NCBI GenBank assembly: GCA_024244705.1
Contig: JAAEOK010000085.1
Coordinates: 62,001-126,000, forward strand
Source of the DNA: Alphaproteobacteria bacterium
Lineage (GTDB): Bacteria; Pseudomonadota; Alphaproteobacteria; JAAEOK01
DNA: 64,000 nt
Reading direction: 5' to 3'
The notes beneath the pieces are model-generated. The model worked only from the letters and a program-made list of their open reading frames with translations. It ran no database searches and was not told the DNA's origin. A program made the translations under genes and the position numbers. Of the stretch, positions 521 to 28,437 are shown piece after piece; within the stretch, counting starts at the first letter, position 1; each line of letters starts with the position of its first letter.

Positions 521-1348
521 TTATTCCTCCCAATTCGATGCCGCCGGCCGGAAGGCAGGCGCGTCATCGATGCGATAGGCGGCGATCGCCTTCTGGCCCG
601 GTTCCGATAGAAGCCAGTCGGCGAGGCGACGCGCACCCGCCGCATTGATGCCGTCATGGCGGTCGGGGTCGACGAGAACCAACCCGTAGACGTTCTTAAG
701 CAACGGATCGCCGGCAAACAGGATGCGCAGCTGGTCCTTGTTGCGGAACGCCAGCCACGTGCCGCGATCGGTCAGGGCGTAAGCCAGCCGCGCCGATGCG
801 ATGTTGAGGGTCGCCCCTTGGCCGCTACCGCTTTCGAGGTACCAGGCGTCGCTGCGGCCCTGGGGATCTCGGCCCGCGATCGCCCATAGCTCGCGCTCGC
901 GCCGGTGGGTTCCGCTATTGTCGCCGCGAGAAATAAACATCGTACCGCTATCGGCGATCCGCTGCAGCGCCGTAGCGGCATCGGTGGCGGTTTTGACCGC
1001 GACCGGGTCGTCCCCCGGCCCGACAATGACGAAATCGTTGTACATCACATCGGCGCGGGCGCTTCCGCCGCCGTCGGCAACGAGATTTCTCTCCGCTTCC
1101 GTGTCATGGACCAGGATCAGGTCGACGTCGCCGCGGCGGGCGAGCGCAATCGCCTCGCCGGTGCCGCGCACGATCACCCTGACGGTCTCGCCGGAATCCC
1201 GAGCATAGGCTTCGAGCAGATTATCGAGCAGGCCGGATTCCTCGACCGTCGTCGTCGTCGCCAGGCGTACCGGGTCTTGTCCTGAAGCCTGTTCCGGCCC
1301 CCAGGCGATCGCCGCCGCCAGCAGGAGAATTCCGGCCAGTCTGTTCAT
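521..1348 (-). CDS. Second TupA-like tungstate-binding protein
   Basis: A 275-residue periplasmic solute-binding protein with a signal peptide (hydrophobic residues about 4-20, cleavage probably near ASGQ). It shows TupA-family signatures: LATTTTVEESGLLDNLL just after the signal, the segment GTGEAIALARRGDVDLILVHD, and DVMYNDFVIVGPGDDP. It is the last gene of the leftward tup operon and a paralogue of the TupA at 2996-3829, with the same motif order but clear sequence divergence. Inference: it binds tungstate or molybdate for the same permease, perhaps with a different affinity. A related oxyanion ligand cannot be excluded. Confidence 0.82.
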   Translation of the reverse strand: MNRLAGILLLAAAIAWGPEQASGQDPVRLATTTTVEESGLLDNLLEAYARDSGETVRVIVRGTGEAIALARRGDVDLILVHDTEAERNLVADGGGSARADVMYNDFVIVGPGDDPVAVKTATDAATALQRIADSGTMFISRGDNSGTHRRERELWAIAGRDPQGRSDAWYLESGSGQGATLNIASARLAYALTDRGTWLAFRNKDQLRILFAGDPLLKNVYGLVLVDPDRHDGINAAGARRLADWLLSEPGQKAIAAYRIDDAPAFRPAASNWEE

Positions 1349-22977: not shown

Positions 22978-22993
22978 GCTATTTATACATTCG

Positions 22994-23182
22994 ATGAACG
23001 CGCGTGAATTCCGCCGTTGGCTCAGAAAGCAGGGTTGCACCTTTCAAAACCACAGGGGCGGAAGCGGGCATGTCACGGTCTATCGCGGGGACGGGAAAGC
23101 GCAATTGCCGATGCACGGGAAAGGCAAGGAGCTCGGCACGGGCCTGGTCGCCAAGATCAAGAAGGACTTAGGATTGAAATGA
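22994..23182 (+). CDS. hicA: HicA family mRNA interferase toxin
   Basis: A 62-residue dsRBD-like toxin that cleaves mRNA. It shows MNAREFRRWLRKQGCTFQNHRGGSGHVTVYRG, with the catalytic His26 in the conserved GGSGH context, and the basic tail KGKELGTGLVAKIKKDLGL. It overlaps hicB by 4 bp (ATGA). There is no Shine-Dalgarno upstream of ATG 22994; a TATACA-like element lies just before it, so a leaderless or weakly translated mRNA is possible. Confidence 0.92.
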   Translation: MNAREFRRWLRKQGCTFQNHRGGSGHVTVYRGDGKAQLPMHGKGKELGTGLVAKIKKDLGLK

Positions 23183-23601
23183 TCTCGTATCGTGTGAAAC
23201 TCGAAGCCGACGACAACGGAACATTGCTCGTCACCTGCCCCGATTTGCCGGAGGTGACGACCCACGGTGAGGACGAGGCCGACGCACGCTCGCGCGCGCT
23301 GGACGCCATCGAAGAGGCGATCGCCGCGCGTATCGCCGACCGCGAGCCCATTCCCCCAGCGCGCCGGAAGGGCGAACCGCGGGTTTTCCTGCCGACCCAG
23401 ACCACGCTCAAGGTTCGCCTCTATAACCGCATGCTGGCGGAAGGCGTGAACAAGGCGCAGCTTGCCGAGCGCCTGCACGTCCACCGGCCGCAGGTTGATC
23501 GGCTGCTTGACCTCCGCCACGCGTCTCGTCTCGATCAGTTGGACGCCGCGTTCGGCGCTCTTGGATCCAGAATCGCCGTCGAGGAAGAACAGGTGGCATG
23601 A
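23179..23601 (+). CDS. hicB: HicB family antitoxin
   Basis: A 140-residue antitoxin. The N-terminal RNase H-like HicB domain is seen in ISYRVKLEADDNGTLLVTCPDLPEVTTHGEDEADARSRALDAIEEAI. The C-terminal helix-turn-helix (NKAQLAERLHVHRPQVDRLLDLRHASRLDQLDAAFGAL) should bind the upstream palindromes. The start overlaps the hicA stop, so the two are translationally coupled. It neutralises HicA and represses the operon. Confidence 0.92.
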   Translation: MISYRVKLEADDNGTLLVTCPDLPEVTTHGEDEADARSRALDAIEEAIAARIADREPIPPARRKGEPRVFLPTQTTLKVRLYNRMLAEGVNKAQLAERLHVHRPQVDRLLDLRHASRLDQLDAAFGALGSRIAVEEEQVA

Positions 23602-23783
23602 AATGGGCTCGACGCTTGGATGCCAGGGTCGGCGCCGCGACTCTCGCAGATCTCAATCTGTTGGGATTTGACCCGCACTCATTTCACATAACGCCCGCCA
23701 GGCACTCGATTTAAGTCAATTGCCCGTAGTGCCTAATCTTTGAATGGGATGTCCGAGACGCCCCTTAAAAGGCGATAGTATAC

Positions 23784-23981
23784 TTGACTGAACAAAGCGG
23801 CGTATTATCTAAGGTGGGACAGGCTGGCGCTAGGATTGAGGACCAAGCGATTGCTATCTTCCGCGATTGGGAGGACGGTGTGGATTACAATGGGGGCTCT
23901 GCGGCGTTGGAGCCCGACATTAGACGGTTAGTGAGGCGTCTTCTGGATTTGCGTCAGGAACCATCCCCAAATGTTTCTTAG
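23784..23981 (+). CDS. Element A terminal small ORF (65 aa)
   Basis: This frame begins inside the left terminal repeat (TTG 23784; the upstream codons ATA-GTA-TAC also belong to the open frame). It converges on the HEPN-like gene and overlaps its 3' end by 62 bp. The N-terminal part (VYLTEQSGVLSKVGQAGA, counting from the repeat) matches the equivalent ORF of element B (VYLTNTDQHIPEKGQAGA). This is the main evidence that it is translated. The start codon is uncertain. No known domain. Confidence 0.45.
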   Translation: MTEQSGVLSKVGQAGARIEDQAIAIFRDWEDGVDYNGGSAALEPDIRRLVRRLLDLRQEPSPNVS

Positions 23982-24438
23982 CGAACATGATGAAGTCTTC
24001 CGTGAGTCTCGTGATTTTAGAGGCTTCTGCTGCCAATCGTTCTGGGGTGAACTTTTCCTCCTTCAAATTCACGCCGGATAATTTGATCTTACCCCTTGCC
24101 TTCATCACCTGAGGCACGATCGAGTTTGGTTCGTCACCCTTGGCCCATACAGAGTGAGCAATTGTATTTCTTAAGCTGTAGGCTGCGTTCATTCGTACGA
24201 TTAAACACTCAAATTCTTTTGCGGCTTCTTCATCAAGCTCCGCCAGCTGCACGAATGTACGCATTACGTCTCTGCGGTCGTTGTAACCAATATGCCAAAA
24301 AGCGACCATTGCACGTTCTTCATCTGTTTTGAGTAGGGGCGCTAAAGCGTATAGGATTAAGGTTTCTAGTATCGCCCAGTACATTATGACTGAGCCAAAG
24401 CCTTTAAGGTGATCTTCTGTTACGTGATGTTGGGGCAT
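23920..24438 (-). CDS. HEPN-like protein of element A
   Basis: A 172-residue mostly helical protein. A helix with WAILETLILYALAPLL (21-36) is followed, after about 55 residues, by SLRNTIAHSVW, which contains R90-N91-x3-H95, the Rx4H signature of HEPN ribonucleases. The C-terminus is a further helical segment (ITRLTEDFIMFAKKHLG). The start ATG 24438 shares its bases with the opposite-strand 55-aa gene (CATG), the same geometry as in element B. Only the general fold and active-site motif are recognisable. Inference: an RNA-cleaving or RNA-binding cargo protein. Confidence 0.65.
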   Translation of the reverse strand: MPQHHVTEDHLKGFGSVIMYWAILETLILYALAPLLKTDEERAMVAFWHIGYNDRRDVMRTFVQLAELDEEAAKEFECLIVRMNAAYSLRNTIAHSVWAKGDEPNSIVPQVMKARGKIKLSGVNLKEEKFTPERLAAEASKITRLTEDFIMFAKKHLGMVPDANPEDASLTV

Positions 24439-24604
24439 GGCTAAAATCCCGAGAGACCAAGACGAATACAGCGACAAAGAGGCTGCGAAGCGCCGCGACA
24501 GGGTGTTGGAGCGGATGCTAACGACGCCGCCGAAGCCTCATAAGCAAGACCGGGGGACAAAAGCCCCCCGGTCCACTTCAGGCCAAAAGAAGAAACAAGA
24601 CTAA
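24437..24604 (+). CDS. 55-aa basic protein of element A
   Basis: The protein begins MAKIPRDQDEYSDKEAAK, carries VLERMLTTPPKPHK at about 24-37 and ends in a Lys-rich tail (GQKKKQD). Element B encodes a 55-aa homologue with the same MAK-x-P-x-DQ start and VLRRMLNTPPKPHK core, in the same position and orientation. The two ATGs of the divergent pair overlap. The net charge is strongly positive, so RNA or DNA binding is plausible. The family is not known to me. Confidence 0.6.
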   Translation: MAKIPRDQDEYSDKEAAKRRDRVLERMLTTPPKPHKQDRGTKAPRSTSGQKKKQD

Positions 24605-24620
24605 GGCTATTTTCATAGCC
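24605..24620 (-). terminator. Terminator of the element A transposase/ncRNA transcript
   Basis: Read on the minus strand: GGCTAT-GAAA-ATAGCC, a 6-bp stem with a GNRA-type loop, then TTAGTCTTGTTTCTTCTTTT. The hairpin starts one base after the stop codon of the convergent 55-aa gene, so it may serve as the end of both transcripts. Confidence 0.6.
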
Positions 24621-25021
24621 GTTGCACTGTCCACTTCGACCGTCACACGAAACCTAACCATCGAGTTGCCTCACGGTTAAGCCCGTGGCCACGGGCGCTA
24701 AACCCGAACTGTTTGTATTCGCGCCGTGGCTAGCGCTAGCCCGCTCCTATGCAGCACCTTGGAGTGGGCATCGGCCAAGATTGCCAACCCGCCTTGCTCT
24801 CCTCCCGTTGGGCTGGGCCAATCCTCATTGGCCGCCCTCAGGGTGGCCGAGAGACTGAGCCGGGTCTCGACCTTAAGCCCCCTCGGTTCAGGGGGCCCAG
24901 GGCGCAACCTACGCCCCTAATGCGGTGGAGGTTACCGCCGCAGCGGACCCTTCCCGCACCTAGTTAAATTATGACTCTGGATTATCGTTTGAGTCGAGTC
25001 AGCAAGCGGCGCGTAACGTCT
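24621..25021 (-). ncRNA. Structured non-coding RNA candidate, element A
   Basis: About 400 bases follow the transposase stop with no convincing ORF. In the sense direction a GACTC/GAGTC stem comes first, then an outer stem (arms 24954-24959 and 24920-24925) around a conserved CCGC-TGCG-GCGG hairpin. Two adjacent hairpins follow: 24900-24916 (stem GGGCG/CGCCC) and 24877-24896 (stem GCCCCCT/AGGGGGC). Their loops hold complementary GGTT and AACC. Further downstream are GGCCAAT-GAGG-ATTGGCC, GGCTAGCGCTAGCC and GCCCGTGGCCACGGGC. Element B keeps the first part with compensatory changes. Confidence 0.65.
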
Positions 25022-25990
25022 TTAATTGTAAGCCTTTTGCTGGCTCTCTTGCCCGCTGTTAGTCCGCCGATATGTAAGGCGCTTGCCGGTAATGCCACGG
25101 ATCGCGTCGGCGGCGCGTTCGTCGTCCTCGATGCCGAGTGACGAGCGGCGGTTGTAACGAAAGTCGTATTCGGCAAGGTAGCGGTCCAGGTGCTTTTCTT
25201 GGCAATGCTGATAGACGCCCTTCATGCCGCGCTTGAAGATCGAGAAGTAGCCTTCGATGGTGTTGGTGTGGGCTTCGCCGCGCACGTACTCTTTCTTGCC
25301 GTGGTTGACTCTCAGGTGGCGCGAGAACTCACGCCCGACACGGCGATAGTGATTGGCCTCGTCGGTGGACAGGATGCTTTCACGCCAAACGTTTGTAACC
25401 ACGATATCGCGGATTTCCTTGGTGCCGACTTTATCGACTTTGAAGGAGCGGACGGAACCGCCGCGCTCTACGAGGGAAACGACTTTCTTCATGTCGCCGT
25501 AGCCACGCTTGCGAAGCCATTTACCTTTTTCCGAGTCGTATTCGTAGGGCTGTTTGCCGAGAAAAGTTTCGTCGGCCTCAACAACGCTTCCAGGCCCGCC
25601 CATCGAGCGGTCAAAAAGGGGGCCTTCACGCATGGACTCACGGATGCGATGAGCCATGAACCACGCGGTCTTGTAGGTGACGCCCAACATGCGATGGAGT
25701 TGGTGGGCGCTAATACCTTTTTTGGAGGCGGCCATGAGGTGTGTTGCGAGAACCCATTTATGCAAGGGAACCTTGGAGCGCTCATAGAGGGTGCCGACAC
25801 GGACGGTAAACTTCTTGCGGCAGTCGCCACAGTGATACCAGCCCGGCCCCATCGATTTGCCGCCGAGAACCTTAACCTTGTCCATAGCGCCGCAGTACGG
25901 GCAATAGGGACCATCGGGCCAGCGGATGGCCTCGATATGCTTACGGGCGGCGGTCTCGTTGGTGAATATGGGCTTGGAAAGGTCGGTCAT
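25022..25990 (-). CDS. IS1595-family (ISXO2-like) transposase of element A
   Basis: A 322-residue DDE transposase. An N-terminal zinc ribbon (CPYCG...CGDC, about 31-57) is followed by the KVPLHKWVLATHLMAASKKGISAHQLHRMLGVTYKTAW helix-turn-helix region. The catalytic domain has VEADETFLG, STDEANHY and NTIEGYFSIFKRG. AAGGAG precedes the ATG. A TTGACT-N17-TATCTT promoter candidate starts inside the terminal repeat. Residues from about 75 on are almost identical to the element B enzyme, while many synonymous sites differ. Both are intact. Confidence 0.95.
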   Translation of the reverse strand: MTDLSKPIFTNETAARKHIEAIRWPDGPYCPYCGAMDKVKVLGGKSMGPGWYHCGDCRKKFTVRVGTLYERSKVPLHKWVLATHLMAASKKGISAHQLHRMLGVTYKTAWFMAHRIRESMREGPLFDRSMGGPGSVVEADETFLGKQPYEYDSEKGKWLRKRGYGDMKKVVSLVERGGSVRSFKVDKVGTKEIRDIVVTNVWRESILSTDEANHYRRVGREFSRHLRVNHGKKEYVRGEAHTNTIEGYFSIFKRGMKGVYQHCQEKHLDRYLAEYDFRYNRRSSLGIEDDERAADAIRGITGKRLTYRRTNSGQESQQKAYN

Positions 25991-26050
25991 CGTCTATCTC
26001 CTTGATACTAAAGATAGGTAGTGACTGCCGTTCAGTCAAGTATATAATCA

Positions 26051-26064
26051 CCCCTTAAAAAGGC
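26051..26064. repeat. Junction of the two transposons with overlapping target duplications
   Basis: The right end of element A (...CACC) is followed by CCTTAAAAA and then the left end of element B (GGCGATTG). Bases 26053-26060 are the right target copy of A (CCTTAAAA), and 26054-26061 are the left copy of B (CTTAAAAA). The two duplications overlap by 7 bp, so one element inserted into the target copy of the other, one base out of register. Confidence 0.9.
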
Positions 26065-26123
26065 GATTGTATACTTGACAAATACACGGCTGCTCCCCAT
26101 CTATAGGTTACAAGGAGTTAGCC

Positions 26124-27092
26124 ATGACCAACATTACAGCCGCACGTTACAAGTCAGAGGCCGCAGCCAGGAAGCACCTCGAAGCCATACGCTGGCCCGA
26201 TGGTCCTATCTGCCCGCACTGCGGTTCTGTAGACAACTCGACGCGCATCAAGGGCAAGACCGCACGCCCCGGCCTGTGGTCCTGTAGCGATTGCCGCCAG
26301 CAATTTACGGTGACGGTCGGTACCCTGTTCGAACGCTCCAAGGTGCCCCTGCACAAATGGCTGTTGGCTAATCACCTGATCTGTTCCAGCAAGAAGGGCA
26401 TAAGCTCGCACCAATTGGCCCGCATGTTGGGCGTCACTTACAAAACCGCGTGGTTCATGGCCCATCGTATCCGTGAGTCCATGCGCGAAGGCCCTATGTT
26501 CGATCGCAGCATGGGCGGTCCCGGTAGCGTCGTGGAAGCAGATGAAACCTTTCTCGGCAAACAGCCCTACGAATACGACTCCGACAAGGGTAAATGGCTT
26601 CGCAAACGTGGCTACGGTGACATGAAGAAGGTCGTTTCGCTGGTCGAGCGCGGCGGGTCCGTCCGTTCCTTCAAGGTCGATAAGGTCGGCACCAAGGAAA
26701 TCCGCGATATCGTCGTGACCAACGTCTGGCGTGAAAGCGTCCTCTCGACCGATGAAGCCAATCACTATCGCAATGTGGGCCGTGAATTCTCACGTCACCT
26801 AAGAGTCAACCACGGCAAGAAAGAGTACGTGCGCGGCGAGGCACACACCAACACCATCGAGGGCTATTTCTCGATCTTCAAACGCGGCATGAAGGGCGTC
26901 TATCAGCACTGCCAGGAAAAGCATCTGGACCGCTACCTTGCCGAGTTCGATTTCCGCTACAACCGCCGCTCCGCCCTTGGCATCGAAGATGACCAGCGCG
27001 CCGACGAAGCCCTAAAGGGCATTGAGGGCAAGCGCCTCACCTATCGGCGGACTAACAGCGGGCAAGAAAGCCAGCAAAAGGCTTACAATTAA
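26124..27092 (+). CDS. IS1595-family (ISXO2-like) transposase of element B
   Basis: A 322-residue DDE transposase with a zinc ribbon (CPHCG...CSDC) and catalytic blocks VEADETFLG, STDEANHY and NTIEGYF. AAGGAG precedes ATG 26124. The first 75 residues differ from the element A enzyme (MTNITAARYKSEAAARKHLEAI against MTDLSKPIFTNETAARKHIEAI); the rest is nearly the same. A TTGACA hexamer lies in the terminal repeat. The N-terminal divergence, which includes the zinc ribbon, parallels the different inner repeat sequences. Confidence 0.95.
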   Translation: MTNITAARYKSEAAARKHLEAIRWPDGPICPHCGSVDNSTRIKGKTARPGLWSCSDCRQQFTVTVGTLFERSKVPLHKWLLANHLICSSKKGISSHQLARMLGVTYKTAWFMAHRIRESMREGPMFDRSMGGPGSVVEADETFLGKQPYEYDSDKGKWLRKRGYGDMKKVVSLVERGGSVRSFKVDKVGTKEIRDIVVTNVWRESVLSTDEANHYRNVGREFSRHLRVNHGKKEYVRGEAHTNTIEGYFSIFKRGMKGVYQHCQEKHLDRYLAEFDFRYNRRSALGIEDDQRADEALKGIEGKRLTYRRTNSGQESQQKAYN

Positions 27093-27536
27093 AGAAGTTA
27101 CACAACGCTTGCTGACTCGACTCAAATGATAAACCCGAGTCATAATCCGGCCAGACGTGCAAAGACCCGCTGCGGCGGCAATCTCTGCACGCCTAGGCGC
27201 GGTCCAACCCGCGCCGGGCCGCTTTGTTGGAAGCGGCTCAAGGTTTGGGTGCCTCAACCTCCCCTCAACCCGTTCAGTAGGCTGAACCCAAGTTGGGCGG
27301 ATTGGGACAACACCCCTGCCGACGCACTCACGGATCAGGCCAATTCGTGGGCGCACCCTCCTAGTGGGGTCAATCACTGGGAAACCGGGCACCAAGAACC
27401 TTTTCCGGTTCATGGCGTCATGGGCCGAGAAAGGCTATCGAGAGATGGTTTTCTCGGTAAGCGTGGCGGTCAGGGTCGATGTGGCCGCCATCCTTAGGTG
27501 GATTGCGGTCGCGCTTATCGTCTTGACTTAGACGCA
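27093..27536 (+). ncRNA. Structured non-coding RNA candidate, element B
   Basis: Follows the transposase stop. It keeps the element A plan: GACTCG/CGAGTC stem, outer stem 27156-27161/27186-27191 (CGTGCA/TGCACG), inner CCGC-TGCG-GCGG, hairpin 27196-27215 (GGCGCGG-TCCAAC-CCGCGCC) and hairpin 27216-27239 (GGGCCGCTT-TGTTGG-AAGCGGCTC). Loop bases CCAAC (27204-27208) and GTTGG (27226-27230) are complementary, a predicted kissing contact. More hairpins follow: GTTCAG-TAGG-CTGAAC, the CCGAGAAA/TTTTCTCGG pair, and the GGCGGTC/GGCCGCC pair near the end. The 3' end runs antisense into the 55-aa gene. Confidence 0.65.
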
Positions 27537-27682
27537 GGGGCGGTCTTCGGGCCGCCCCTTCCCTTATCGCCCTTATCGAGCGGCTTATGCGGCTTCGGGG
27601 GCGTGTTCAGCATCCGCCGCAACACCGCATCTTCGCGCGCGCTGTCATTACTTTTGCCTTGATCTTTTGGGGGCTTTGCCAT
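27515..27682 (-). CDS. 55-aa basic protein of element B
   Basis: A homologue of the element A 55-aa protein and exactly the same length. Start MAKPPKDQGKSNDSARED, core VLRRMLNTPPKPHK at about 20-33, tail rich in Gly, Lys and Arg (KGDKGRGGPKTAPASKSRR). ATG 27682 overlaps the ATG of the HEPN-like gene (CATG). The basic, low-complexity tail suggests nucleic-acid binding. Conservation between two diverged elements supports that it is translated. Confidence 0.6.
   Translation of the reverse strand: MAKPPKDQGKSNDSAREDAVLRRMLNTPPKPHKPLDKGDKGRGGPKTAPASKSRR
27537..27558 (+). terminator. UUCG-capped hairpin at the end of the element B ncRNA
   Basis: A 9-bp stem from GGGGCGGTC and GGCCGCCCC around TTCG, followed by TTCCCTTATC. 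It lies inside the 3' end of the opposite-strand 55-aa gene. It is a likely 3' end or stability element of the non-coding RNA; the T tract is weak. Confidence 0.5.
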
Positions 27683-28211
27683 GCCTGAAACAATCATAAA
27701 CCTAGAGCCGATAAACGAAATTCCGACCTATGCCGAACCAATCATTCGCGCCATTGGGATCGGACACCTCAGTTGGGGAAAACTCGAACAGCATTTAGAC
27801 ATCCTTCTTAACGCTGTCAGCAATGAGCGCTATGTAACCGGCGCAACGCAATTGCCCAAAACCTCTTTTCGCCTGAAAGCCAAACTATTCAAACAGATTT
27901 ATGCAGAACATCCGAATTTTAAGGTTGTGCACCAAATAGCTGGGCCGGTTTGTGATGGGCTAAAGAAGGCGAACACCAGCCGCGTTCGGCTAACGCACTC
28001 CAATGTCCAAGGATTCTCACCCGGCCCTCCAGCAGCCATCAGCGTCAGGATAACAGATTTCAATGGCCCTGATTTACGAACCAAAGACGGCTCATGGACA
28101 CTTCAGGATATCGAAGATTTTGTCTCGCTTCTGTCTCACTTGAGCACGGATTTTGGCAAAATTAGCAAACTGACTATGAACGAAGCCTTCCGGAAATCTC
28201 TCGAAATATAG
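27681..28211 (+). CDS. HEPN-like protein of element B
   Basis: A 176-residue helical protein. GIGHLSWGKLEQHLDILLNAV (26-46) corresponds to the W-x2-LE-x2-L helix of the element A protein. TSRVRLTHSNV supplies R101-x4-H106, matching the HEPN Rx4H pattern in spacing though not with the usual Asn after Arg. LQDIEDFVSLLSHLS near the C-terminus matches the final helix of the A protein. Overall identity is low, so the two are distant homologues. A GGGGGC ribosome-site candidate precedes ATG 27681. Confidence 0.6.
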   Translation: MPETIINLEPINEIPTYAEPIIRAIGIGHLSWGKLEQHLDILLNAVSNERYVTGATQLPKTSFRLKAKLFKQIYAEHPNFKVVHQIAGPVCDGLKKANTSRVRLTHSNVQGFSPGPPAAISVRITDFNGPDLRTKDGSWTLQDIEDFVSLLSHLSTDFGKISKLTMNEAFRKSLEI

Positions 28212-28410
28212 CTATCCCAAACTCAAGGGGTAAGGCTATGGGTGCGTGATCGTCTACGCCGTTTGCCGCGTCCACGTATTGACAGATCATTCTCTCGATT
28301 TTAGCCGCTAGCTCAGGAGTCATTCCCTCAGGAAGCGGGACTTCCCTAAACTGTGCGCCGGCCTGTCCCTTTTCAGGTATGTGTTGGTCTGTATTTGTCA
28401 AGTATACCAT
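28174..28410 (-). CDS. Element B terminal small ORF (78 aa)
   Basis: It starts at ATG 28410, inside the right terminal repeat (MVYLTNTDQ is encoded by it). It runs inward and overlaps the HEPN-like gene end by 38 bp. The N-terminus shares VYLT and K-GQAGA with the element A counterpart. The rest (FREVPLPEGMTPELAAKIERMICQYVDAANGV...) has normal protein composition. Transcription would have to start outside the element, that is, from the recA side. Confidence 0.5.
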   Translation of the reverse strand: MVYLTNTDQHIPEKGQAGAQFREVPLPEGMTPELAAKIERMICQYVDAANGVDDHAPIALPLEFGIAIFREISGRLRS

Positions 28411-28422
28411 CCCCCTTAAAAA

Positions 28423-28437
28423 GAACATTTACAGAAC
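28423..28437. promoter_or_regulatory. LexA (SOS) box of recA
   Basis: GAAC-ATTTACA-GAAC is an exact alphaproteobacterial LexA site (GAAC-N7-GAAC). It begins on the base after the right target duplication of transposon B and lies 66 bp before the recA start. Binding by LexA and induction on DNA damage follow from established knowledge of this motif. Confidence 0.8.

Follow-up and report, generated by a model that had tools for sequence, protein, structure and literature searches.

A kissing-loop RNA between transposase and membrane micro-ORF in IS1595-family transposons, and its possible role as a switch-like leader

Two adjacent hairpins in neighbouring IS1595 elements

We consider a stretch of 64,000 nucleotides (nt), the window, from the forward strand of Alphaproteobacteria bacterium contig JAAEOK010000085.1 (positions 62,001 to 126,000; GenBank assembly GCA_024244705.1), in which two related transposons of the IS1595 family, A and B, are neighbours in inverted orientation. 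Each has a transposase of 322 amino acids (aa), at 25022-25990 on the minus strand in A and at 26124-27092 on the plus strand in B (84% identity with that of A), and both are assigned to the family by Pfam DDE_Tnp_IS1595 (PF12762; 8e-33 for A, 1e-33 for B) and NCBIfam transpos_IS1595 (NF033547; 1e-57 and 5e-58). Some 350 nt lie in each between the transposase and a micro-open reading frame (micro-ORF) for a membrane peptide of 27-28 aa. In A this noncoding region is 24662-25021, near the 24621-25021 of the original prediction, a note made from the letters of the window that proposed an RNA with kissing hairpins, left its strand unstated and did not take in the wider setting of IS1595 transposon, micro-ORF, competing hairpins 5' of the start codon and HEPN-like passenger. 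The RNA is to be read on the sense strand of the transposase, minus in A and plus in B.

The two adjacent hairpins that were proposed in A are real. A kissing-pair search and an alignment of six members (see below) place the first, hp1, at 24899-24917 on the minus strand, GGGGCG(UAGGUUG)CGCCCU with the loop UAGGUUG, and the second, hp2, at 24877-24896 on the same strand, GCCCCCU(GAACCG)AGGGGGC with the loop GAACCG; the two loops pair through GGUU and AACC. The same search and alignment give hp1 of B at 27196-27215 on the plus strand, GGCGCG(GUCCAACC)CGCGCC with the loop GUCCAACC, and the alignment gives hp2 of B at 27218-27237 on the plus strand, GCCGCUU(UGUUGG)AAGCGGC with the loop UGUUGG, followed by the tail UCAAGGU at 27238-27244. 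B was said to have both hairpins at the same relative place, with changed stems and the complementary loops CCAAC and GUUGG, and this is confirmed.

The further step, from compensatory changes to a real kissing RNA, is borne out by the homologues and by the structural comparison of A with B, which counts seven double-compensated stem pairs and two broken ones, the latter in the outer part of a hairpin that we call Pa. By direct reading, the four loop-loop pairs of A are all double-changed in B, given a 1-nt gap at the front of loop 1; with the gap placed elsewhere, fewer such pairs are counted. A coding explanation is disfavoured by insertions or deletions of a single base that distinguish A from B in loop 1 and in Pa. 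When the ~540-nt element region is dinucleotide-shuffled, 6% of the shuffles for A and 11% of those for B contain such a kissing pair somewhere, so that A or B alone proves little and homologues are needed. What decides for a kissing RNA, as far as sequence can decide, is the homologous position together with the covariation and four further members.

The 5' half of the noncoding region consists, in order, of a hairpin P0, the bipartite hairpin Pa, hp1 and hp2, and a conserved tail resembling GGCUnAAGG; a structure-aligned stretch of 136 nt in each element (25005-24870 on the minus strand in A, 27109-27244 on the plus strand in B) folds into this series. P0 of A, at 24972-25001 (minus), has the stem UGACUC...GAGUCA, and its stem and loop start hold the motif GACTCGACTC, which is common to other IS1595 elements; P0 of B is placed at 27113-27142 (plus) by structural comparison with A. 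Pa has an outer and an inner helix with a cUGCGg loop in both elements. Structural comparison and alignment place it at 24919-24961 (minus) in A, with a covarying outer helix and the inner CCGC[UGCG]GCGG with unpaired AA, and at 27153-27194 (plus) in B. The 3' end of hp2 and the tail of A, GGGGGC-UUAAGGU at 24870-24882 (minus), are marked by conserved columns and by their specificity in descriptor searches.

Homologues and covariation

Transposase relatives were gathered from genomes, viral contigs and plasmids. Plain DNA similarity to the noncoding region gives practically nothing and no useful homologues; the key to them is the micro-ORF of A and B, with its hydrophobic C-terminal stretch, 3' of the noncoding region. 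It recurs in nine other elements, in which the similarity was judged by eye from pattern matches, and in all 11 elements it begins 325-401 nt past the transposase stop. Adjacent hairpins with complementary loops in these noncoding regions lead to the loci L070 and L108, and then to L346 and L170, two loci that were recognised via transposase and micro-ORF and whose loops were inspected only afterwards. The layout is present in six IS1595 elements (A, B, L070, L108, L346 and L170), in every case with the transposase on one side and a similar micro-ORF on the other. Of the 217 non-redundant IS1595 downstream regions compared, these six have the kissing RNA, and they all belong to the 11 with a similar micro-ORF (Fisher test, 3e-9); the remaining 206 lack both RNA and micro-ORF and carry unrelated cargo instead, e.g., VapC or a PIN-domain protein.

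The six members have six different kissing sequences, all of them complementary: GGUU/AACC, CCAAC/GUUGG, GCGG/CCGC, UACCG/CGGUA, UGGCG/CGCCA and GAGAU/AUCUC. The matching of each hp1 loop with the hp2 loop of its own element is the unique best of 720 permutations, with an off-diagonal maximum of 3 base pairs (bp). When hp1, hp2 and the kissing helix are aligned over the six rows, 99% of the 104 scored cells hold standard pairs and 12 of the 19 pairs change on both sides, with double changes in all five kissing columns. The original prediction had offered a covariance test over homologues as its check; run on the six members, the test is passed, with a covariation score of 0.818 against 0.237 for shuffled alignments and none of 500 shuffles reaching it, and control alignments in which the partners are slid by 1-3 columns stay at <=0.12. 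In the outer helix of Pa, 38 of 40 cells are paired, which one of 720 permutations reaches. L108 and L346 are close relatives, and such relatedness inflates the permutation tests; the alignment gaps were padded with N by hand so that MAFFT keeps the columns, and the kissing pairing of L070 requires the opening of one closing pair. All six members have a Pa-like hairpin immediately 5' of hp1 and the tail GGCU(n)AA(G/U)G 3' of hp2. We regard it as close to certain, from this covariation, that the fold with its kissing loops is real, and we infer that the region is transcribed.

How specific is the layout? A descriptor with a strict tail, taken from A and B alone, matches in 4.8 Mb of both strands only A, B and L170, where the match sits between an IS1595 transposase and the micro-ORF. 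With a relaxed tail the descriptor picks up, besides the six members, no more than duplicates of their loci in the same 4.8 Mb; the strict tail is the cleaner test of specificity because the pattern was relaxed after L108 had been seen. The two-sequence model R1 (A and B) was applied without filters to 21.7 kb, and its highest-ranking sites after A and B themselves are the homologous ones in L070 and L108. With default filters on 385 genomes and 170 loci it finds nothing but A and B above noise, and the best noise-level match in one such scan is L170, later recognised as a member. A further model, R2, finds zero members beyond the six. An exact 19-mer search with one open position has no match in viral contigs, and a 14-mer search returns 80 stretches that we take as mostly chance and did not examine singly.

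The comparison with Rfam that the prediction had also suggested gives no matching family. At gathering as well as permissive thresholds, Rfam 15 has no family match in the window or in the noncoding regions of six related loci, and a known RNA family is rejected as an explanation of the region; the best sub-threshold match, ar35 (17.3 of 45 bits), lies inside an antisense ORF of B. A search of the open-access literature turned up no paper on an RNA from IS1595; the IS1595 family review (Siguier 2009) is outside that scope and the novelty is provisional. With this provision, the kissing RNA looks like a real RNA that has so far gone undescribed. The fold is kept while the sequence is almost wholly changed, so that ordinary similarity searches miss the RNA, and this may explain its absence from databases. 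A and B share with the passenger-gene insertion sequences of IS1595, a widespread DDE family, the transposase family, terminal inverted repeats, 8-bp target duplications and cargo genes; what differs is the module of structured RNA and micro-ORF, which we did not find described for the family in that literature, nor did our searches find any earlier structured RNA for IS1595.

The micro-ORF, the competing hairpins and the possible role of the RNA

We turn to the 3' end of the region. The micro-ORF codes for a predicted membrane peptide of 27-34 aa across the elements, and ORF comparison gives it as MVRFRVTVEVDSATAMKIALVLFLLLA at 24578-24661 (minus) in A, with an RBS-like (ribosome binding site-like) GAGG just 5', and as MVFSVSVAVRVDVAAILRWIAVALIVLT at 27445-27531 (plus) in B. 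Upstream of it, most of the 11 elements have a middle segment with two possible partners, one further upstream across a U-rich loop and one downstream, beside the RBS. In A these competing hairpins (24681-24706, minus) have by direct reading the layout CGGG-UUUAGCG-CCCG-UGGCCA-CGGG, and a palindrome search finds there the 16-nt perfect palindrome GCCCGUGGCCACGGGC at 24681-24696. Competing-hairpin scoring gives in B (27396-27434, plus) the hairpins GAACC-UUUUCC-GGUUC versus CGGUUC-...-GGGCCG, whose 3' end GAGAAAGG includes a candidate RBS, and L346 has CGUAGG-UUUUCACAG-CCUACG-GCGC-CGUAGG. The competing-hairpin score 5' of the start codon exceeds that of shuffles with a combined p of 1.6e-8, to which relatives contribute that are not independent.

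The sequence-supported extent of the RNA is ~330-400 nt on the transposase-sense strand, from the transposase stop codon to the micro-ORF, and the comparison of the elements establishes its fold, its strand, its position and its linkage to the micro-ORF. Because the micro-ORF keeps its distance from the stop in all 11 elements, and competing hairpins precede it in most of them, we consider it probable, if not strongly so, that the region is a cis-acting, switch-like leader of a small cargo unit in IS1595-family transposons, with the switch function as our working hypothesis. The RNA would be co-transcribed, from the transposase promoter or from one of its own; the kissing-loop domain may be a rigid sensor or scaffold, whose state would decide which 3' hairpin forms, and the chosen hairpin would gate translation of the micro-ORF. 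The HEPN-like passenger further downstream would be part of the same cargo. Like riboswitch-type and other translational leaders, the region has a structured, covariation-supported domain upstream, a short downstream ORF and, in most members, predicted alternative hairpins beside the RBS; different are its place between two genes of a transposon and the lack of a matching class in Rfam. It is a tentative and on balance doubtful extension that these are an undescribed class of large IS1595 kissing-loop RNAs that sense a ligand, an ion or their own dimerisation by way of the varying palindromic loops, that they switch translation of the membrane micropeptide, and that together with a HEPN ribonuclease they make up a mobile module of the toxin, defence or addiction type.

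Several observations weigh against a switch-like leader. For L032 (0.27) and L090 (0.43) the competing-hairpin score falls short of significance, and the best-scoring hairpins in A, L032 and L041 differ from those described (in A they are other, overlapping hairpins). Five elements, L032, L041, L072, L094 and L090, share the micro-ORF and its spacing yet have another layout that lacks the adjacent kissing pair; the kissing core is thus not obligatory for the micro-ORF. The folding energy alone is unexceptional in some members, with the opposite strand similar (by z-scores that are not decisive), and no ligand is suggested. As for the other layout, the noncoding regions of L032, L041, L072 and L094 align and covary, with 22 of 70 predicted pairs double-changed; they show a long closing helix and three arms. 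L094 and L090 have in common a hairpin like GAACRG(CGGSUUAU)CYGUU.

Structured RNAs in transposons have repeatedly proved important, e.g., the omega and bridge RNAs. A trans-acting RNA that has the transposase or a host protein as its binding partner, or that guides or promotes transposition as the IS110 bridge or IS200/605 omega RNAs do, with the micro-ORF merely downstream, would fit the location immediately 3' of the transposase gene and on its strand, the fold that stays while the sequence varies, and the compact 5' domain with its conserved terminal tail. We judge it unlikely: the 206 related elements that have neither the RNA nor the micro-ORF suggest that transposition does not need the RNA, which accompanies the micro-ORF instead. 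The likeness to IS110 bridge RNA and IS605/IS607/IscB omega RNA (HEARO) is that of a structured RNA beside a mobile-element gene. The enzyme here is of another class, an IS1595 DDE transposase and neither an IS110 recombinase nor a TnpB/IscB effector; the variable loops pair mutually, so that no guide is exposed and no guide loops are seen, and Rfam gives no HEARO match.

The passenger proteins bear on another possibility, that the RNA is the partner (antitoxin-like or substrate) of a HEPN-like protein in a cargo module of toxin-antitoxin or defence type. The passenger of A, 172 aa at 23920-24438 (minus), has the motif R-N-T-I-A-H, and that of B, 176 aa at 27681-28211 (plus), has R-V-R-L-T-H in its translation; in eight aligned passengers the R and the H of R-x4-H are invariant, in agreement with the R-x4-6-H spacing of HEPN nucleases. 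Pfam HEPN_RiboL-PSP matches two of the eight (best 8.8e-6). The predicted structure of the A passenger (pLDDT, predicted local distance difference test, 82) has HEPN chains 2hsb, 4rgp and 7bxo at the top of a structure comparison (Z 7.1-8.0, root-mean-square deviation 3.2-3.6, 98-105 residues aligned), with Z values that are only suggestive for a helical bundle, and Foldseek lists no match below E 0.001, HEPN included. These models and the alignment are suggestive of a HEPN-like, ribonuclease-like protein. By one motif rule such a passenger is present in 8 of the 11 module elements vs 28 of 202 other IS1595 elements (Fisher test, 4e-5), which favours a partnership; the same 28 occur without the RNA, the micro-ORF and an antisense ORF separate the RNA from the passenger, and the RNA has no repeat array, unlike type III antitoxins. 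A partnership with the passenger thus seems improbable. Passengers with R-x4-H that we call HEPN-like are seen in A, B, L032, L072, L090, L094, L108, L346 and L170.

The region might also belong to the transposase mRNA as a structured 3' untranslated part that serves stability, termination or insulation and has no sensing role. The RNA does start at the stop codon and its helices are strong. The loop-loop covariation and the near-fixed spacing to a recurring micro-ORF exceed the needs of a protective hairpin, and the terminator-like hairpin of A (24552-24568) comes 3' of the micro-ORF and not 5' of it, and we give this explanation little credence. Perfect palindromes, 14-18 nt long, are present in A, L032, L041, L070, L346 and L170, each with its start 28-39 nt 5' of the micro-ORF, and their centres vary between GGCC, CCGG, GCGC and CGCG. 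They recall OLE and GOLLD, where loops that switch between palindromes are covariation evidence for dimers (PMC12286853), but a homo-oligomeric ornate RNA with palindromic GC loops near its 3' end is very unlikely here, as B has no palindrome at this site and the longest one of L090 is elsewhere, and palindromes are equally expected of a DNA operator or of hairpin arms that overlap. OLE, GOLLD and ROOL are structured bacterial RNAs that kissing loops stabilise and whose palindromic loops covary (PMC12286853); the present RNA differs in having no Rfam match, in its ~350 nt and in being embedded in a DDE transposon, with oligomerisation hinted at by the palindromic loops alone. For the cis-acting leader that we prefer, the constant company of a tiny membrane peptide, and usually of a HEPN-like protein, makes a defined and testable system, a mobile cargo unit with a candidate RNA switch.

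Transposon ends, antisense ORF and neighbouring features

Repeat searches and direct reading give the ends of both elements. The left 8-bp target duplication of A, CCTTAAAA (23763-23770), is followed by the start of the left inverted repeat (feature 23763-23778), and the end of the right inverted repeat is followed by the right copy of CCTTAAAA at 26053-26060 (feature 26037-26060). The left duplication of B, CTTAAAAA at 26054-26061, overlaps the right one of A and stands with the left inverted repeat start at 26054-26069; the right inverted repeat end and right CTTAAAAA are at 28399-28423. With CCTTAAAA and CTTAAAAA overlapping at 26053-26061, the two related elements A and B have practically one insertion site in common. 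Inverted repeats surround eight of the nine other micro-ORF elements, and several have clear 8-bp duplications, e.g., ACTATTTT in L346 and AAAATAAT in L094. For ISApl4, 8-bp AT-rich duplications have been reported (PMC12561309).

The common order past the micro-ORF is a ~50-aa antisense ORF and then the passenger gene. The antisense ORF has 55 aa in both elements, MAKIPRDQ...TPPKPHK... at 24437-24604 (plus) in A and MAKPPKDQ...TPPKPHK..., recognised by the recurring motif, at 27515-27682 (minus) in B, and in each the start codons of this ORF and of the passenger overlap in a single CATG. Dozens of IS1595 transposases have downstream an ORF of this kind, with a motif like RxxMLxTPPKPH.

GANTC, the CcrM methylation site of alphaproteobacteria, was counted over the first 200 nt past the transposase stop of 80 IS1595 loci (L001-L080; in A and B the sites concerned fall at 24972-25001 and 27113-27142). 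The sites cluster 3' of the stop, with 0.65 per 54 nt at +50 to +100 vs 0.16 for control palindromes, and are nearly absent within the transposase gene. Control of the RNA by GANTC methylation was set aside, the cluster being present also in elements without the RNA.

A recA-like gene (by eye) adjoins the insertion site of A and B. On the viral contig of L108, positions 973-1039 (minus) hold an Rfam int-alpA RNA (RF02996). Left of A, at about 22990-23601 of the window, two ORFs resemble a HicA/HicB toxin-antitoxin pair by eye, and repeats of the GTTGCGCAACA type, also seen by eye, precede them.
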